Below are positions 4,819 through 17,062 of a stretch of DNA of 62,892 bases, one piece after another. The position numbers were made by a program, and so were the translations under genes. How positions within the stretch are numbered: the first letter of the stretch is position 1; each line of letters starts with the position of its first letter. Under the pieces are notes generated by a model. It had not been told where the DNA came from, made no database searches, and worked only from the letters and a program-made list of their open reading frames with translations. Source of the DNA: Opitutales bacterium (GTDB lineage: Bacteria; Verrucomicrobiota; Verrucomicrobiia; Opitutales; Oceanipulchritudinaceae); NCBI GenBank assembly GCA_020831525.1, contig JAFIGH010000016.1, positions 1 through 62,892 on the forward strand, given 5' to 3'.

Positions 4819-5415
4819 ATGCGTTCCGCACACCGTTTTCTGATCTTCCTTCTTTTCCCCCTCCTTGCTCCGATCGGCACTGTCGCGGGTCAGAATATGA
4901 CCTATGCTTCGGGCAGTTACACCATACGCCCGCTGGATGTCGTCCGCGTCACGCTGTATGTTGCGGATGATCAGCAGTTTTCCACGGAGGTGCGTGTATC
5001 CTCCGGCGGGACGGTTTCGCTTCCGTATCTCGACCAGGTGACCTTGGCAGGTCTGACGGTGGAGGAAGCCCGGCGCTTCGTCTACGAGCCCTACAACCGC
5101 GATTACTATGTCGAGCCGCACATCGACCTCGTCGTTTTGACTTCGGCGGCCCGCACCGTCACGGTCATGGGGCAGGTGAACGCGCAAGGGCAGGTGTTCC
5201 TCCCGTCGGAACAGCCGCTTTCCCTCCTGCAGGCGATCGCGGCGGCGGGCGGTTTCCGGAGCAACGATCTCGCGGACAAGCGCCGCGTCCGTATCACCCG
5301 TATCGGGACGGACGGCCAGGAGGAAGTGCTCACGGTGAACGCCGATGATATTTCCGCAACGGACATGCCTCTGCAGGAGAACGATTTGATTTTCGTGCCG
5401 CGCCGTATGTGGTGA
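4819..5415 (+). CDS. Polysaccharide export protein, Wza-like (short)
   Basis: The 198-residue product has a signal peptide, a polysaccharide-export domain (SYTIRPLDVVRVTLYVADD... VSSGGTVSLPYLDQVTLAGLTVEEA) and one SLBB-type domain (TVTVMGQVNAQGQVFLP... LLQAIAAAGGF). It is much shorter than E. coli Wza (about 380 residues) and has no lipobox cysteine, so it is probably not a lipoprotein. The role is periplasmic or outer-membrane channel for exopolysaccharide. It lies between the barrel gene and the tyrosine kinase; 57 nt separate it from the latter. Confidence 0.88.
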   Translation: MRSAHRFLIFLLFPLLAPIGTVAGQNMTYASGSYTIRPLDVVRVTLYVADDQQFSTEVRVSSGGTVSLPYLDQVTLAGLTVEEARRFVYEPYNRDYYVEPHIDLVVLTSAARTVTVMGQVNAQGQVFLPSEQPLSLLQAIAAAGGFRSNDLADKRRVRITRIGTDGQEEVLTVNADDISATDMPLQENDLIFVPRRMW

Positions 5416-5472
5416 GCCGCGGCGGGCCTTCCACCTTGATTTTTCTGACAACCTGATACTACACAATTTGCA

Positions 5473-7737
5473 ATGAACAAGACCCCTCCTCCCGGTAACG
5501 ATGGAAGCTACGGTGGCGGCTATTACGGCGGCTACTACTACGGTGAAGGTTACGGCAGTTACGCTGAAGCCGCCGTCCAGCCCTCGCGCGGATTGAAAGA
5601 CTACCTCGTCATCCTCCGTGAACGGATTTGGTGGCTTGTTGTCACGGTCTTCGTCGTCTTCCTTGGTGTCGCCCTCTACACCTTCAATGCTCCGGAGCAG
5701 TACCGCGCGGTGGCCACGGTGGAACTCCTGCGCGACAAGGACCGCACGGTCCAGTTTGAGGACATCGTGAATCAAAAGATTCATAACGTCGAGGACTTCA
5801 ACACGCAGGTGCAGGTGCTGGAGAGTTTCAGCATGGTGCGCGAAGTGCGGAAGCGCCTGCAAGGAAATGAACTCCGCCGCTTCATGGCGCCCTACGAAGA
5901 GGGACTCGACGTCTCCCTGCGCGGTATGCGCAGCCCGGAGGAAATCCTCTTTCGCAACCGTTCGATCTCGCCCCGCCGTCTGTCCCTCATGGTGAATATC
6001 GGCTACTCGCACCCGAACCCGGAAGTCGCGGCGGCAGTGGCCAACTATTTCGCCGAGGCCTACCTCGAACACTCCCTGCGCGAGCAGATCGACGGCTCGC
6101 GCCGCGCGGTCGACCAGCTGCGCCAGCAGGCCGACCAGGAACTGGTGAAGATCAAGGATATGGAGCGCCGACTGGCCGACTTTAAGGACAAGTATGGAAC
6201 AACTTCGTTCGATGCCCACCAGGACATCGACAACCAGCAGCTCATCGCCCTGAACACCCGTCTCCAGGAAGACCGGCGCAACTATGACATGGCGCGCACC
6301 GCCTGGCTGCAGATCGAACGAGCGATGGACGAGGGGCGCCCGCTCTACGAGTTGAAAACGATCGCCGGGACCGCGCAGGTACCTGAGTTGCTCACCCGCA
6401 TGCGAACATTGCGGATCGACGTGGCGACCCTGAGTAAGCGCTTCCGCGACAAGCATCCCCGCATGATCGCGGCACGCGAGGCGCTGGAGCGCACGCAGGA
6501 TGAACTCTCCGCCGCCGTGAACGAGGCCGCGCGCAGTTTCCGCAACGATTACGAGCGTTCCCGCACGAATTTCGAGAATTCCCGCGAACGGCTCGCCGAG
6601 AAGGAGCGCGAAGTGATCGAGCTGGACCGCCTGCGCCCGGAATACAACGCGCTGCTCCGCGACCTCGGCATCAGCAAGCAACTTTACGACCACTATTATT
6701 CCCGCCTCCAGCAGGCAACGGTGAAGGGTTCGCTCGAAGGACAAACAGCCCGCATCGTGGACGAGGCGCTTGTCCCCGCGCGGCCTTATAGCCCGAATAT
6801 TTCTCTCAATCTTGCAATCGGTCTTGTCGCCGGATTCGGCCTTGGGCTCGGACTCGTGTTCGCCCTCGCGATTCTCGACGACAAGATCAAGACGGCTTTC
6901 GATATCGAGTCGACGATCGGCCTCCCGCTCATAGGCATCGTCCCCCGGATCAGCCGGGTCGATGTAACGGAGAAGGCGCGCATTGTCGCTGACAATCAGG
7001 ATAAGCACACCGTCGAATCCTTCCGCGCCATCGTTTCCACCCTCAAACTCAATGAGGAGAGCCGGAACGCCAAGGTCATCCTCACCACAAGTACGGTGCC
7101 GAGTGAGGGTAAGTCGTTTGTTTCCACAAACTTGGCGATCACCTTTGCCAATCACGGCGAGCGCACCATCATCGTCGATTCCGACTTGCGCATGCCCAAC
7201 ATCGCCAAGTCGCTCGATCTCGAGTCAAAGGTCGGCTCTCTCCACGTCCTGACCGGTGACAAAAAGCTGGAGGACGTCATTATCAAGGATTACCTCCCGA
7301 ATCTGGACATCCTTCCGTCCGGCGGCCGTAGCAAGAGCCCGACGCAGATGCTCAGCAGCGAGCGCTTCGCCAACCTCATCCACGAGCTTCGTCTGCGTTA
7401 CGACAAGGTGATTATCGACTCGCCGCCGCTCGCACCGGTGAGCGACGCGCTCAATGTGCTCCCGCTCGTTGACGGCGTGCTCTACGTCGTGCGCTTCAAT
7501 ATGGTCAAGCGGAAGACGGCGAACCTCAATATCCGCCGCCTGCGCGAGTCCAACATCCCCGTCTTCGGTGCGGTGCTGAACAACATCAACACCCGCTTCG
7601 CCGGATACTACTACTCGCACTACTACGACAAATCATACTCGCAGTACTATTTTGCCGGAGACGACGCCGAACCGATTGTCGCGGGCGGCGACGAAGGGCA
7701 GGAAAATATCAAGGAAGAGACTTCGGTCAAATCCTAA
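5473..7737 (+). CDS. Chain-length determinant / BY-type tyrosine kinase, Wzc-like
   Basis: This inner-membrane polysaccharide co-polymerase with a fused cytoplasmic tyrosine kinase has 754 residues. Order: a Gly/Tyr-rich N-terminal tail, TM1 about 54-76, a periplasmic Wzz region with long coiled coils (about 200-400), TM2 about 443-466, and the kinase with Walker A around 540-549 (PSEGKS), Walker A' around 566 (IIVDSDLRMP) and Walker B around 646 (VIIDSPPLAP). The C-terminus carries a tyrosine cluster (about 711-727), the expected autophosphorylation site. The tyrosine-rich N-terminus (residues about 13-30) is unusual. It completes the export set, but no glycosyltransferases or polymerase are next to it. 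Confidence 0.93.
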   Translation: MNKTPPPGNDGSYGGGYYGGYYYGEGYGSYAEAAVQPSRGLKDYLVILRERIWWLVVTVFVVFLGVALYTFNAPEQYRAVATVELLRDKDRTVQFEDIVNQKIHNVEDFNTQVQVLESFSMVREVRKRLQGNELRRFMAPYEEGLDVSLRGMRSPEEILFRNRSISPRRLSLMVNIGYSHPNPEVAAAVANYFAEAYLEHSLREQIDGSRRAVDQLRQQADQELVKIKDMERRLADFKDKYGTTSFDAHQDIDNQQLIALNTRLQEDRRNYDMARTAWLQIERAMDEGRPLYELKTIAGTAQVPELLTRMRTLRIDVATLSKRFRDKHPRMIAAREALERTQDELSAAVNEAARSFRNDYERSRTNFENSRERLAEKEREVIELDRLRPEYNALLRDLGISKQLYDHYYSRLQQATVKGSLEGQTARIVDEALVPARPYSPNISLNLAIGLVAGFGLGLGLVFALAILDDKIKTAFDIESTIGLPLIGIVPRISRVDVTEKARIVADNQDKHTVESFRAIVSTLKLNEESRNAKVILTTSTVPSEGKSFVSTNLAITFANHGERTIIVDSDLRMPNIAKSLDLESKVGSLHVLTGDKKLEDVIIKDYLPNLDILPSGGRSKSPTQMLSSERFANLIHELRLRYDKVIIDSPPLAPVSDALNVLPLVDGVLYVVRFNMVKRKTANLNIRRLRESNIPVFGAVLNNINTRFAGYYYSHYYDKSYSQYYFAGDDAEPIVAGGDEGQENIKEETSVKS

Positions 7738-8045: not shown

Positions 8046-8549
8046 ATGGGTCTTGAGATCGAGCGGAAGTTCGTTGTCGACGCGTCCATGCTGCCTGATC
8101 CGGAGAAGGCAGTGCCAATGGAGCAGGGTTATCTGGACCACGGGCAAATCGCGGCCCGGGTGAGGATCGCGGGCGAACGGGCTTTTCTCACCCTCAAGGG
8201 GACTGGTTCCGGCACTTCGCGCGCCGAGTTCGAGTATGCGATTCCGCTCGAAGACGCGCGGGAGTTGCTGCGCTCCTGCTCGCTGCCGGGCCGGGTTGCG
8301 AAGACACGGCGCTACTACCGCCACGGCGGGCGTCTTTGGGAGGTGGACGTGTTCGGGGGGGCGAACGAAGGCCTTGTTCTCGCTGAGGTCGAACTGGAGA
8401 GCGAGGATGCCGCGGTCGACGTGCCCCCTTGGGTGACGCGTGAGGTCAGTGGCGATCCGCGGTATTTCAACGCCTACCTCGCCCGCCATCCGTATGGTGA
8501 ATGGCGTGGCGATGAGGCTTCGGATAACTTGGAAGGGGGCGGTACATGA
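8046..8549 (+). CDS. CYTH domain protein (triphosphate tunnel enzyme)
   Basis: The 167-residue product has the CYTH signature ExExK (GLEIERKF, residues 2-9), followed by the tunnel residues expected of an active enzyme: arginine in AARVRI, lysine in LTLKG, glutamate in EFEY, KTRRYY and EVDVF / AEVELE. Such proteins hydrolyse inorganic triphosphate or related substrates with a divalent metal. It overlaps the CHAD gene by 4 nt (ATGA), so the two are likely translated together. Substrate cannot be told from sequence alone. Confidence 0.92.
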   Translation: MGLEIERKFVVDASMLPDPEKAVPMEQGYLDHGQIAARVRIAGERAFLTLKGTGSGTSRAEFEYAIPLEDARELLRSCSLPGRVAKTRRYYRHGGRLWEVDVFGGANEGLVLAEVELESEDAAVDVPPWVTREVSGDPRYFNAYLARHPYGEWRGDEASDNLEGGGT

Positions 8550-10117
8550 GTTTGCCGGCGGTCTGGTGGCCTTCTGACGAGGAGTTTGCCCGGCGCGTGC
8601 TCGCGGATGTCCGCCGCCGCTTTACCGTTGTGACGGAGGGCCGCGAAACGGTGGCCGCACAGTGCTTCGAGACTTTCGACTGGCGGCTGTGGGAGAGCGG
8701 ATTGGTGCTGGCGCGGACCGCCCGTCCGGCACGGTGGCTCCTGACACGGGTGGATGATCGTTCAACGGTCGCGCGAGAAATGTCGGGTAAAGGGAATCCG
8801 CGCCGGATTTTCAGCCACGGATTTCCGCCCGGCGCTTTGCGCGACCGCCTCCGTGATGTCTGCGGGATCCGGGCGGTCCTGCCGGCAGGCCGCTATCGTG
8901 AGTCGCGTGAGTTTTTTGCGCTGTGCAATGGAGACGGGAAAATTGTTTGCCGGTTGGTTCTGGAAAAGGCTTCGGCAACGGAGCCGCGCGGTGGGAAAGT
9001 CCCGCTGTCGGCCGCCGGTTTCCGGCTCACTCCGCTGAAAGGGTATTCCAGGGAGGCGCGCGAGGCCGCGGCCTGCCTTGCGGAGATGGGGTGCCGTGCC
9101 AGCGGAGAGAGTGCGCATCCCGCGCTCCTTGCTTTTGCCTCCGTGGACCGGGAGCCGTGCGACTATTCATCAAAGGCGCGGGTGGACCTGCCGCAGGCGA
9201 TCGCGGCGGCAGACGCGTGCCGGCGGATTCATCTCTTTTCGCTCGATGTCGCCGAGCGCAACCTGCCGGGGATTTCCGAGGACCTTGACACGGAATTTTT
9301 GCATGATTTCCGGGTTGCGCTGCGCCGCAGTCGGTCTGCCTTGTCGCTCGTGAAAGGGGTCTTTCCGCCGAAGGTGGAGAAGCGGTTCGGGAAGGACTTG
9401 GCGAAGATCCAGCGTGCCACTAACCGGCTGCGCGATCTTGATGTGCATCTGCTCGAGCGGGAGGCCTTCGAGGCGCTGCTTCCTCCGGAGCTGCACGCGG
9501 GGTTGGAAGGTTTGTTTCGCCAGCTCGCGGGGGAGCGGGAGCAGGCCTTGCGCCGGTGTCTTGAGTCCCTTGAGCGCCCCGCGACATCGGAGATTCTGCG
9601 CGACTGGCGGGCGTTTCTTGAGCTGCCCGCGGATTCCGCGGCGCCGCGAGCCCGCGAGCCCGCCGAGGCACTTGGGCGGAAGCTCCTGCGCAAACGCTTT
9701 CGGCGCATCCTGAAGGACGGACGCGCCATTGGCGCAAAGACACCCGACGCCGCTCTCCACAAACTCCGCCTACAAGTCAAGAAGCTGCGTTACCTGCTCG
9801 AATTTTTCGGCAGCCTGCTGCCCGCTGACGAGACGGCCTCGTTTGTGAAACGCTTTCGCAAGCTTCAGAATATCCTCGGTCGTTTCAACGACCTCTGCAA
9901 TCAGGAGACATGGGTGCGCCGCCGCCTTGAAGCGGCTGAGGCCAAGGAGGGCACATCGACGGAGCTGGCGGCCTCGCTCGGCGGTCTTCTCTCCGAGTTG
10001 GGCCGGGCGCGTAGCGCCGAGCGCGCCAAGTTCGGACGCGCGTTCGCGCGCCTCGACGACCCTGCTGTGCGCGCCCGGGCGAAAGCTCTCTTCGGGGGAA
10101 AGGAAGGAAAGGGATGA
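8546..10117 (+). CDS. CHAD domain protein with degenerate CYTH-like N-terminus
   Basis: The 523-residue product has two parts. Residues about 1-200 resemble a CYTH fold (CFETFDWRLWESGLVLAR matches the typical 'DTPD..L...G..LR' strand) but lack ExExK, so this part is probably not catalytic. Residues about 212-505 are a CHAD helical domain rich in conserved His/Arg/Lys: the HDFRVALRRSRSAL motif in the first repeat and ALHKLRLQVKKLRYLLEFF in the second. CHAD domains are known to bind polyphosphate. The gene overlaps the CYTH gene upstream and the ParA gene downstream by 4 nt each. Confidence 0.9.
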   Translation: MSLPAVWWPSDEEFARRVLADVRRRFTVVTEGRETVAAQCFETFDWRLWESGLVLARTARPARWLLTRVDDRSTVAREMSGKGNPRRIFSHGFPPGALRDRLRDVCGIRAVLPAGRYRESREFFALCNGDGKIVCRLVLEKASATEPRGGKVPLSAAGFRLTPLKGYSREAREAAACLAEMGCRASGESAHPALLAFASVDREPCDYSSKARVDLPQAIAAADACRRIHLFSLDVAERNLPGISEDLDTEFLHDFRVALRRSRSALSLVKGVFPPKVEKRFGKDLAKIQRATNRLRDLDVHLLEREAFEALLPPELHAGLEGLFRQLAGEREQALRRCLESLERPATSEILRDWRAFLELPADSAAPRAREPAEALGRKLLRKRFRRILKDGRAIGAKTPDAALHKLRLQVKKLRYLLEFFGSLLPADETASFVKRFRKLQNILGRFNDLCNQETWVRRRLEAAEAKEGTSTELAASLGGLLSELGRARSAERAKFGRAFARLDDPAVRARAKALFGGKEGKG

Positions 10118-10857
10118 AAGTTATCGCCCTCTACAACATAAAGGGCGGCGTGGGAAAGACCGCCGCAGCCGTAAATCTCGCGCACCTCGCGGCTTCTGGT
10201 GGCAAGCGCACGCTTTTGTGCGATCTCGATCCGCAGGCCGCCGCGACCTTTTACCTCCGTGTGCGGGCGGGTAAACGCCACAGCGCGAAGCGCCTCATCC
10301 GGGGCGGAGGAGGGCTCGACCGGCAGATCCGTGAGTCGGATTTTCCCGGTCTTCATCTCCTCCCCGCGAAACTGGGGTTCCGCAATCTCGATCTCAAGCT
10401 CGACGCCAGTAAGCGGTCGCGCAAACGTCTTGCCGAGTCGCTTCGGAGCCTTGCCGACGCCTACGATCTCGTGGTGATCGACGCCCCTCCGAATATTACG
10501 CTTCTCTCGGAGAATGTAATTGTGGCGGCGGACCTGCTCCTTTGTCCGGTGATTCCGACGACCCTGTCGCTGCGCACGTGGGACCAGCTCGACCGCTTTC
10601 TCCGCAAGGAAAAGCTGCCGCGCGATGGCTTGCGGGCCTTCTTTTCAATGGCGGAGCGGCGCAAGAAGCTCCATGCCTCCACGGTCCACGAGACCCTCGA
10701 CAGCGATCCGCGGTTCTTCTCCGCGGTGATTCCGATGTCCGCCGCCGTCGAACGGATGGGTCCGGAGCGCGCGCCCCTGTTTGCCTACGACCGGCGCTCC
10801 GCCGCCGCCCGCGCTTTTCAAGACCTGTGGACAGAGATCCAGCACGTTTTGTTCTGA
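10114..10857 (+). CDS. ParA family ATPase
   Basis: ParA/MinD ATPases form gradients on the nucleoid or membrane and position cargo. The 247-residue product has the deviant Walker A KGGVGKT (residues 10-16), the A' motif LCDLDPQAAAT and Walker B VVIDAPP. No parB or parS-like partner is adjacent; instead it is the third gene of an overlapping operon with CYTH and CHAD genes. By context its cargo may be a CHAD-coated body such as a polyphosphate granule. That is an inference; a chromosome or plasmid role is less likely here. Confidence 0.9.
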   Translation: MKVIALYNIKGGVGKTAAAVNLAHLAASGGKRTLLCDLDPQAAATFYLRVRAGKRHSAKRLIRGGGGLDRQIRESDFPGLHLLPAKLGFRNLDLKLDASKRSRKRLAESLRSLADAYDLVVIDAPPNITLLSENVIVAADLLLCPVIPTTLSLRTWDQLDRFLRKEKLPRDGLRAFFSMAERRKKLHASTVHETLDSDPRFFSAVIPMSAAVERMGPERAPLFAYDRRSAAARAFQDLWTEIQHVLF

Positions 10858-14914: not shown

Positions 14915-17062
14915 TCAGCCGCCCGACCCGGTATCTGATTCCGCCGCGTCCAGCTTTTCCTCGATGGCGCGGCGGATTCTCTCGTCAGCGGTAGCGAGAA
15001 AGTATTCCTGCACGGAAAACGGCTCGTCCTCGCGGCTCACGCTCACGGGACGGTAGCTTCCGTTGGGGCGCAGCTGCTTCGCGGCCGCGGTATCGCGTTG
15101 GTAGGGCGCTAGAATGTCGTCGATGACACGGTCGCGCAGCGTCTCGTTTTCAATCGGAAAAATGACTTCGATGCGCCGGTAGAAGTTGCGCGCCATCCAG
15201 TCGGCGCTGCCCACCCAGACAAGGGGGTGGTCGCCGCCGCTGTTTTCAAAGTAGTAGATGCGGGAATGCTCAAGATACCGCCCGAGAATACTGCGCACGC
15301 GGATGTTCTCGCTCATCCCCTTCACGCCGGGAACGAGGCCGCATATGCCGCGGATATACAGATCGATCTGCACCCCCGCCCGTGAGGCCGCGTAGAGGTT
15401 GTCGATTGTCTCTTTGTCGATCAGGCTGTTGCATTTGACGAGGATCCGCGCGCGCTTCCCTTTGCGCGCGTTGCGCGCTTCCCGGGAGATCATCTCGTTC
15501 ATCCGGTTGTGGAGAGTGTAGGGAGCGACGAGCAGCTTCTGAAATCGCGGCGACTTGGCGAATCCGGTTAGCGTATTGAAAACTTCCGAGACGTCCTGCG
15601 TGATATCCTCCCGGCAGGTCAGGAGGCTGAGATCGGTGTACTGGCGCGCCGTCCGGGTGTGGTAGTTGCCGGTGCCCAAATGCGCGTAGCGCCGCAGCAC
15701 GCCCTCTTCGCGGCGGACGACGAGGCAGCATTTGCAGTGCGTTTTCAGCCCCACGAAGCCATAGACCACATGCACGCCGTTGTCCTCGAGCTGCCTCGCC
15801 CAGTTGATGTTGGCGGCCTCGTCAAAGCGGGCCTTCAGCTCGATGAGAACGGTCACCTGCTTGTTATTGCGGGCGGCATCCACAAGGGCCTGCACGATGG
15901 GTGAGTCGGAGCTTGTGCGGTAGAGCGTGATTTTTATGGCAAGGACCTTCGGATCGACAGCCGCGTGCCGCACAAAGTCGACCACCGGTTCGTAGGCGTC
16001 GTACGGATGGTGGAGGAGGAAATCGCTCTCGCGGATCGCGTCGTAGACATACCGCGTCGTACGCAGCTCCTCCGGAAAAAACGGATGGAAGGGAGGAAAC
16101 TTCAGGTCGGGGCGGTCGATCATGTCGTAGACGCTTGTCAACCGCATGAGGTTGATCGGCCCGTTGATACGGAAGACGTGCTGCTTTGCCATGTGGATCG
16201 CCCGCAGCAGTTCGTCGAGCAGCTCTTCGGCGATCCCGTCCTCGATTTCGAGCCGGACGGCCGCGCCCTTGCGCATGTTGTAGAGTTCTTCCTCGATTGT
16301 CTGGAGGAGGTTTTCGACTTCTTCTTCGTCGATGTAGAGGTCGCTGTTACGCGTCACGCGGAAGGCGTGCACGGAGTGGATTTTGTATCCGGGAAATAGT
16401 TTCGGCGCGAATATCTTCAGGACGTCGCTGAGGAAGATGTAGCTGTCCGCCACACGCTGATTGCCGGGGATGCACACGACGCGTGAGAGTATCCGCGGCA
16501 CCGGGATGAACGCGAGCATCCGGTCCACCGTCGGGGTGTCCGGGTCGTCCAGCCAGAGGAGAATGTAGAGCGCCTTGTTTCCGAATTGGGGATAGGGGTG
16601 CGCCGGATCGACGGCGAGTGGCGTGAGAACGGGCTGGATCTGTTCCTCGAAGTGGCGGCGCAGCCAGGCAAGTTCCCTGCGCGTCAGCTCCGCCCGCGTC
16701 TTGAAGACGATGCCTTCTTTCGCAAGCGACGGGACAATCTTTTCGTGCCAGCAGCGGTACTTGTCCTGGACAAGGGATGTGGTGACGGAATGGATGCGCC
16801 GCAGTTGTTCCTTGGGGCCTATACCGTCCATCCCGGGTTTGGTATGGCCCGCCTCCACCTGCTGGATCAGTCCGGCCACGCGGATCTCAAAAAATTCGTC
16901 CAGATTGGAACTCACAAAAGAGAGAAAGCGCAGGCGTTCGAGGAGCGGAAACCGTTTGTCCTCCGCCTGCTCCAGCACCCGGCGGTTGAACGCCAGCCAG
17001 CTCAACTCGCGGTTGAAATAGGCGGCTTTCCGCGGTGCCCGTTTTGTCGCAGACTTAACCAT
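14915..17062 (-). CDS. ppk1: Polyphosphate kinase 1
   Basis: PPK1 reversibly polymerises the gamma phosphate of ATP into polyphosphate. The 715-residue product opens with [19 protein letters not shown], and carries the first catalytic histidine in [12 protein letters not shown] (about residue 461) and the second in [12 protein letters not shown] (about 597), with [15 protein letters not shown] downstream. Length matches the family. It lies about 4 kb downstream of the CHAD/CYTH/ParA operon on the other strand, a possible functional link. No ppx or pho genes are adjacent. Confidence 0.97.

Follow-up and report, generated by a model that had tools for sequence, protein, structure and literature searches.

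The CHAD-domain protein and the ParA-type ATPase encoded in the window (the whole 62.9-kb contig of 62,892 nt that was analysed) form a translationally coupled gene pair that is conserved in about ten phyla, and the operon containing them is probably a polyphosphate-granule positioning or partition module. The ParA-CHAD partnership is well supported by genomics, and a role in positioning or dividing granules would be in keeping with the family of the ATPase. The coupling of the two genes, their co-occurrence, the polyphosphate residues of the CHAD domain, the dead triphosphate tunnel enzyme (TTM) fold that precedes it, a signature in that fold that tracks ParA, and the Soj-like fold of ParA are computed directly; we infer that ParA and CHAD touch, that ParA binds the nucleoid, and that granules are positioned as a result.

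Organization of the operon

The initial annotation described an intact CYTH enzyme, a CHAD protein with a dead CYTH-like half and an orphan ParA, with genes overlapping by 4 nt, and the overlaps are exact in both coordinates and sequence (Table 1). The CHAD gene is present in a single copy in the source genome. The ppk1 gene placed about 4 kb downstream is genuine by its TIGR03705 match and lies 4.06 kb away on the opposite strand, separated from the operon by panB-panC-coaX-panD. Directly 5′ of the operon and on the same strand are polysaccharide export protein and Wzz/BY-kinase genes (window 4819-7737), and a BY-kinase gene also stands upstream of the operon in a sister species (L024).

Table 1. 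Features of the operon and its surroundings (window coordinates)
Feature	Position	Strand	Length	Remarks
CYTH/TTM enzyme gene	8046..8549	+	167 aa	Pfam CYTH 2.2e-14
ATGA overlap CYTH/CHAD	8546..8549	+		From sequence coordinates
CHAD protein gene	8546..10117	+	523 aa	Pfam CHAD 6e-52, residues 233-457
Pseudo-TTM (dead CYTH) N-domain	8546..9166	+		CHAD residues 1-207; proposed ParA-facing part
K132 codon	8939..8941	+		Pseudo-TTM signature
G166-Y167 codons	9041..9046	+		Pseudo-TTM signature
CHAD domain	9179..10102	+		Polyphosphate-contact residues H253, R256, R260, R296, R415, Y416
ATGA overlap CHAD/ParA	10114..10117	+		Same arrangement in 45/66 CHAD-ParA loci
Orphan ParA ATPase gene	10114..10857	+	247 aa	Pfam AAA_31 1.3e-34
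ppk1, polyphosphate kinase	14915..17062	-		TIGR03705 3e-273; functional context, outside operon

The first gene does encode an intact CYTH/TTM enzyme. The ExExK motif, the basic tunnel residues and the acidic pair are all present (ExExK, R38, R40, K51, E61, E63, D101, E114, E116), and the catalytic residues are invariant in alignment A4. Its closest solved relative is the homologue NE1496 (NeuTTM; 3typ/2fbl; E 2e-20), a tripolyphosphatase. In Nitrosomonas europaea, NE1496 itself stands third in a CHAD-ParA-CYTH locus; among the papers searched, none was found that considers this CHAD-ParA context.

The two halves of the CHAD protein

The AF2 model of the CHAD protein (pLDDT 91.5) has two parts, of which residues 207-520 match CtCHAD (6qv7/6qva) at Z 36.5 and 1.8 Å over 313 residues. 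The CtCHAD structure was solved with polyphosphate bound, and published work shows that CHAD binds both polyphosphate and granules. The six contact residues of the window protein are invariant in 41 family sequences and correspond to CtCHAD H253, R256, R260, R296, R418 and Y419, mutation of which weakens polyphosphate binding (PMC6537752). The polyphosphate-binding CHAD of the initial annotation belongs to the CtCHAD family; in Chlorobiaceae, those CHADs that are followed by ParA are closely related to CtCHAD. With its CHAD domain and conserved basic pore residues the protein is a CHAD phosin, sharing fold and polyphosphate residues with CtCHAD, YgiF (5a60) and PptA (6rn5); it differs from these in its dead N-terminal TTM domain, which has a signature of its own, and in its ParA partner.

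Residues 1-207 match TTM folds at Z 10-14 and were aligned to intact CYTH-CHAD proteins with hhalign. The N-domain of ParA-linked CHADs lacks the ExExK motif and the second acidic set, both of which are invariant in intact CYTH-CHAD proteins, so that a TTM/CYTH fold remains without its catalytic acids, as the annotation had proposed. By its sequence the domain is a real pseudo-enzyme domain that is not decaying freely: of the 41 CHADs of alignment A2, 40 retain K132, 40 retain G166 and 38 retain Y167.

This signature follows ParA. Among 24 held-out ParA-linked CHADs that had not been used to find it, K132 is present in 23, G166 in 24 and Y167 in 23, and among eight CHADs unlinked to ParA but in the same genome, in six, seven and seven. 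The 33 phylum-locus CHADs without ParA beside them, most from genomes shown to lack operon-type ParA, have K132 in two, G166 in 11 and Y167 in none, while H253 is kept in 33/33. Distant CHADs cannot be aligned safely over the N-domain, so most weight falls on five members without ParA that branch within the ParA-linked clade when a tree is built from the CHAD-domain columns alone. They represent three lineages (L079; L082/L083/L089; L081); Y167 is missing from every one and K132 from two of the three, and the polyphosphate residues are intact throughout. Three events are a small number, and completeness is 78-93% for some of the genomes. Read plainly, the sequences suggest that only genomes with ParA require the conserved surface of the pseudo-TTM domain. 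This domain is accordingly the leading candidate for the site of contact with ParA and a likely ParA docking domain. Because the signature tracks ParA, the case for CHAD as cargo adaptor is strengthened. Lys-rich C-terminal tails of CHAD were rejected as the ParA contact, being found in family f21 and absent from the window and most others.

The same signature bears on whether CHAD and ParA make no contact and merely share expression in the service of metal or phosphate homeostasis. In E. coli, CHAD proteins do influence resistance to copper (PMC10892726), but tracking of the genome's ParA by the pseudo-TTM signature, unlinked cases included, renders that account very improbable.

An orphan ParA ATPase

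The ParA protein carries a deviant Walker A motif, KGGVGKT, with signature lysine K10, as well as a Walker B motif, and has no HTH extension. K10, the Walker A lysine K15 and the catalytic aspartates are invariant in ParA alignment A1. The AF2 model (pLDDT 85.6) matches ParA/Soj at Z 29.9, within the Soj/ParA range of Z 29-30; these features together place it in the ParA family, and its match to NF041546 (ParA_partition superfamily) falls below the cut-off. Of the two DNA-binding arginines of Soj, only one aligns to a basic residue.

The fold also matches BcsQ, FleN and MinD at Z 22-26 and McdA at Z 25.6. ParA might on this ground resemble the first three in function, as a switch that regulates how granules are assembled, either by loading CHAD or polyphosphate enzymes onto them or by setting their number and size, and the recurrence of accessory polyphosphate enzymes around the pair (see below) is compatible with such a switch. 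It is nevertheless unlikely, as Soj-type ParAs with the signature lysine match best in both sequence and fold; otherwise nothing separates it from positioning.

No ParB gene is found in the 62.9-kb contig, none adjoins ParA, and the genome's sole ParB_N match sits on another contig, so the ParA is an orphan as first described. The source genome also has a separate Soj-like ParA on a third contig; this gene (G000:C110:23154) and the only ParB gene (G000:C171:16426) are therefore not side by side. In a quick tree with several weak forks, operon-type ParAs group in a single clade separate from Soj, and linkage to CHAD is spread through the clade. These data weigh on the idea that polyphosphate and chromosome segregation are linked through the pair, with ParA on the nucleoid or origin and CHAD and polyphosphate signalling phosphate status. 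Polyphosphate granules in Caulobacter do follow chromosome segregation (reviewed in PMC13052382), yet a genome with separate Soj and ParB, and an operon-type ParA in its own clade that is tied to CHAD rather than parB, leave such coupling improbable.

Conservation of the CHAD-ParA pair

In a sample of 132 genomes of the order, a homologue of the operon CHAD protein occurs in 13 and ParA in 16 at E<=1e-40 (15 at E<=1e-90). Both genes are present in 12 genomes, CHAD only in one, ParA only in three and neither in 116 (Fisher p 1.7e-13, uncorrected for relatedness). The CHAD-only genome is G096, in which both genes are broken pieces, and the three ParA-only genomes belong to family f22. Across the phylum, 91/337 genomes have some CHAD, and 11 of the 91 (window included) have ParA directly downstream; the chance expectation is well under one, a rough figure based on eight AAA_31 genes in 5.3 Mb. 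Operon-type ParA is absent genome-wide from 55/55 phylum genomes with other CHADs not beside it. A few genomes retain an operon-type CHAD but have no ParA, and in G062 an unlinked CHAD of operon type accompanies an operon-type ParA on another contig. By eye, the G062 ParA lies near genes resembling pstSCAB, and a NUDIX domain appears fused to CYTH in this genome, with no Pfam support at 1e-3.

Beyond the phylum, alignment A1 was the sole query against 84,980 species genomes, and the best 80 of 562 relatives were taken. CHAD lies directly upstream of ParA on the same strand in 48 of these 80 loci and nearby in three more; with 18/18 relatives' loci, this links the ATPase gene to a gene for a cargo-binding partner. 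The exact 4-nt CHAD-ParA overlap occurs in 33/48 and 12/18 loci, two sets with one genome in common. The pair is spread over Pseudomonadota, Thermodesulfobacteriota, Myxococcota, Chlorobiota, Acidobacteriota, Actinomycetota, Dormiibacterota, Planctomycetota, KSB1 and Verrucomicrobiota/Lentisphaerota, as assigned from record titles and taxonomy; many records are MAGs, so single phyla may represent binning errors. The neighbourhood on whose conservation the initial annotation had staked its reading is thus kept in about ten phyla with no adjacent ParB. No natural CHAD-ParA fusion (Rosetta stone) was found among the loci examined.

The least probable explanation is that a plasmid-type partition gene was captured beside CHAD and that the operon is a historical accident. 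ParA falls broadly in the ParA_partition superfamily, as such an origin would have it, but only 10/72,556 plasmid records carry operon-type ParA at E<=1e-30, CHAD adjoins it on six of these, all Paracoccus, and conservation in about ten phyla also argues against capture. The Paracoccus plasmids bear a CHAD-ParA-CYTH-NUDIX cassette (CYTH and NUDIX in the two regions examined), and in both L264 and L265 a 62-aa ORF precedes CHAD, giving the order small ORF-CHAD-ParA-CYTH-NUDIX.

Some ParA relatives without CHAD probably serve another cargo, since a CHAD neighbour is missing from about 40% of the best 80 loci, and a full-length CHAD from most members of Chitinophagaceae and family f22. Clade members without CHAD nearby come from Chitinophagaceae, Methylococcales, Halomonas, Marinobacter and family f22; in Methylococcales and Acidobacteria Mor1 the same CHAD type is encoded elsewhere in the genome.

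Several of these loci have recurrent neighbours. A Chitinophagaceae ParA subclade, with CHAD mostly absent or short, has a conserved putative esterase downstream in 13/14 loci (L180, L182, L183, L186, L188, L201, L203, L207-L210, L212, L217), which may reflect another cargo or function. In Methylococcales (L150:6001-9311 and L166) a glycogen phosphorylase gene follows ParA (Pfam-confirmed in L150), a hint of glycogen as cargo, and on the Marinobacter nauticus plasmid pMAQU02 (L266) the same ParA family lies near phbB, for PHB synthesis, and pyruvate kinase without CHAD. The clade ParA of three f22 genomes that have no CHAD (L244, L245 and L246, from G022, G041 and G071) adjoins an 836-851 aa protein, and a phosphofructokinase gene is near ParA in L246, L225, L074 and L075. 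The Halomonas loci L185 and L187 have CHAD genes convergent with ParA; the L185 CHAD has a KKATGKKAAGKKAAGKK insert resembling the histone H1-like tails of AlgP and PhaF and is perhaps a direct granule-DNA tether.

Links to polyphosphate enzymes

Within five genes of 64 CHAD-ParA loci, CYTH is found in 25, PPK1 in nine, PPK2 in four and a SixA-like histidine phosphatase in nine, the last including L181:6711-7247, L200, L146, L149, L190, L204 and L206. PPK1, a divergent CHAD (Pfam 1.6e-4) and ParA overlap in a row in Sphaerochaeta, and in Magnetococcales ParA is near PiT/PhoU genes. The proximity of ppk1, invoked in the initial annotation, does recur, in 13/98 ParA loci and near the locus in the sister genome G130 and in G262 and G374; it is not general, is on the other strand in the window, and was dropped as a main argument. 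At genome level, ppk1 is present in 18/19 CHAD-ParA genomes, with no PPK1 match in the remaining one, G090.

Discussion

The positioning interpretation gains from the conserved CHAD-ParA pair, the missing ParB and a CHAD of CtCHAD type, and loses part of the weight once given to ppk1. Points against it are the ParA loci that lack a neighbouring CHAD, the genomes that keep the CHAD but not ParA, G090 with its missing PPK1, the single basic match to the Soj arginines and the outcome of the Ralstonia deletions (see below). As proposed, the CHAD domain would bind polyphosphate so that the CHAD protein coats granules, and the N-terminal pseudo-TTM, no longer an enzyme, would dock on ParA as a ParB- or McdB-like partner. 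ParA would sit on the nucleoid as an ATP dimer; CHAD bound to granules would stimulate it locally, and the ParA gradient arising in this way would space the granules and distribute them to daughter cells. The free CYTH enzyme, of NeuTTM type, may be an accessory hydrolysing short polyphosphate or triphosphate. With slightly less assurance, we favour the broader proposal of a widespread dedicated granule partition system, in which a distinct ParA clade and a CHAD with an ex-triphosphatase ParA-docking module are inherited and transferred as a CHAD-ParA(-CYTH) cassette across about ten phyla.

Such a system would resemble McdA-McdB of carboxysomes and other ParA/MinD cargo systems in having an orphan ParA-type ATPase beside the gene for a cargo-binding partner. 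It differs in its partner, a CHAD protein with a pseudo-enzyme domain and an inorganic polymer as its ligand, and in its ATPase, which bears the signature lysine and is closer to Soj than to McdA. With ParA-ParB-parS (Soj-Spo0J) it shares ATPase fold and Walker motifs, while clade, lack of an adjacent ParB and CHAD partner set it apart. AlgP of Pseudomonas and PhaM/PhaF/PhaH also organize storage granules on the nucleoid, as proposed for the operon, but are direct DNA tethers without an ATPase (PMC9239181, PMC13052382).

An Acidithiobacillus folD-ppk-parA-CHAD neighbourhood, with parA beside ppk and a CHAD gene as in the CHAD-ParA loci, was drawn in 2019 and 2024 and interpreted in an adenylate cyclase/cAMP or copper-resistance context, with parA left uninterpreted (PMC6416229, PMC10892726). 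Unlike the operon CHAD, that protein keeps CYTH active-site residues according to the 2019 paper (PMC6416229). In a 2025 review of how organelles are positioned, no ParA is mentioned for polyphosphate; the proteins that position polyphosphate granules in Caulobacter are described there as unidentified, and only AlgP, a direct tether, is given elsewhere (PMC13052382). A full-text literature search, whose coverage leaves out preprints and most subscription papers, returned no report of a ParA/CHAD positioning system, which suggests that this granule-placing machine is so far undescribed.

CHAD proteins have no defined physiological function other than binding, and deletion of CHAD genes in Ralstonia, which is not among the species shown to have operon-type ParA, gave no apparent phenotype (PMC6537752). 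The ParA partner occurs in culturable species, including Nitrosomonas europaea, Ruegeria and Paracoccus, and the signature supplies K132, G166 and Y167 as positions for point mutants. The conserved pairing of parA with a CHAD gene in unrelated bacteria suggests a dedicated machine for placing and sharing granules; if this is true, the ParA partner would provide both a mechanism for granule placement and sharing and a role for CHAD proteins.
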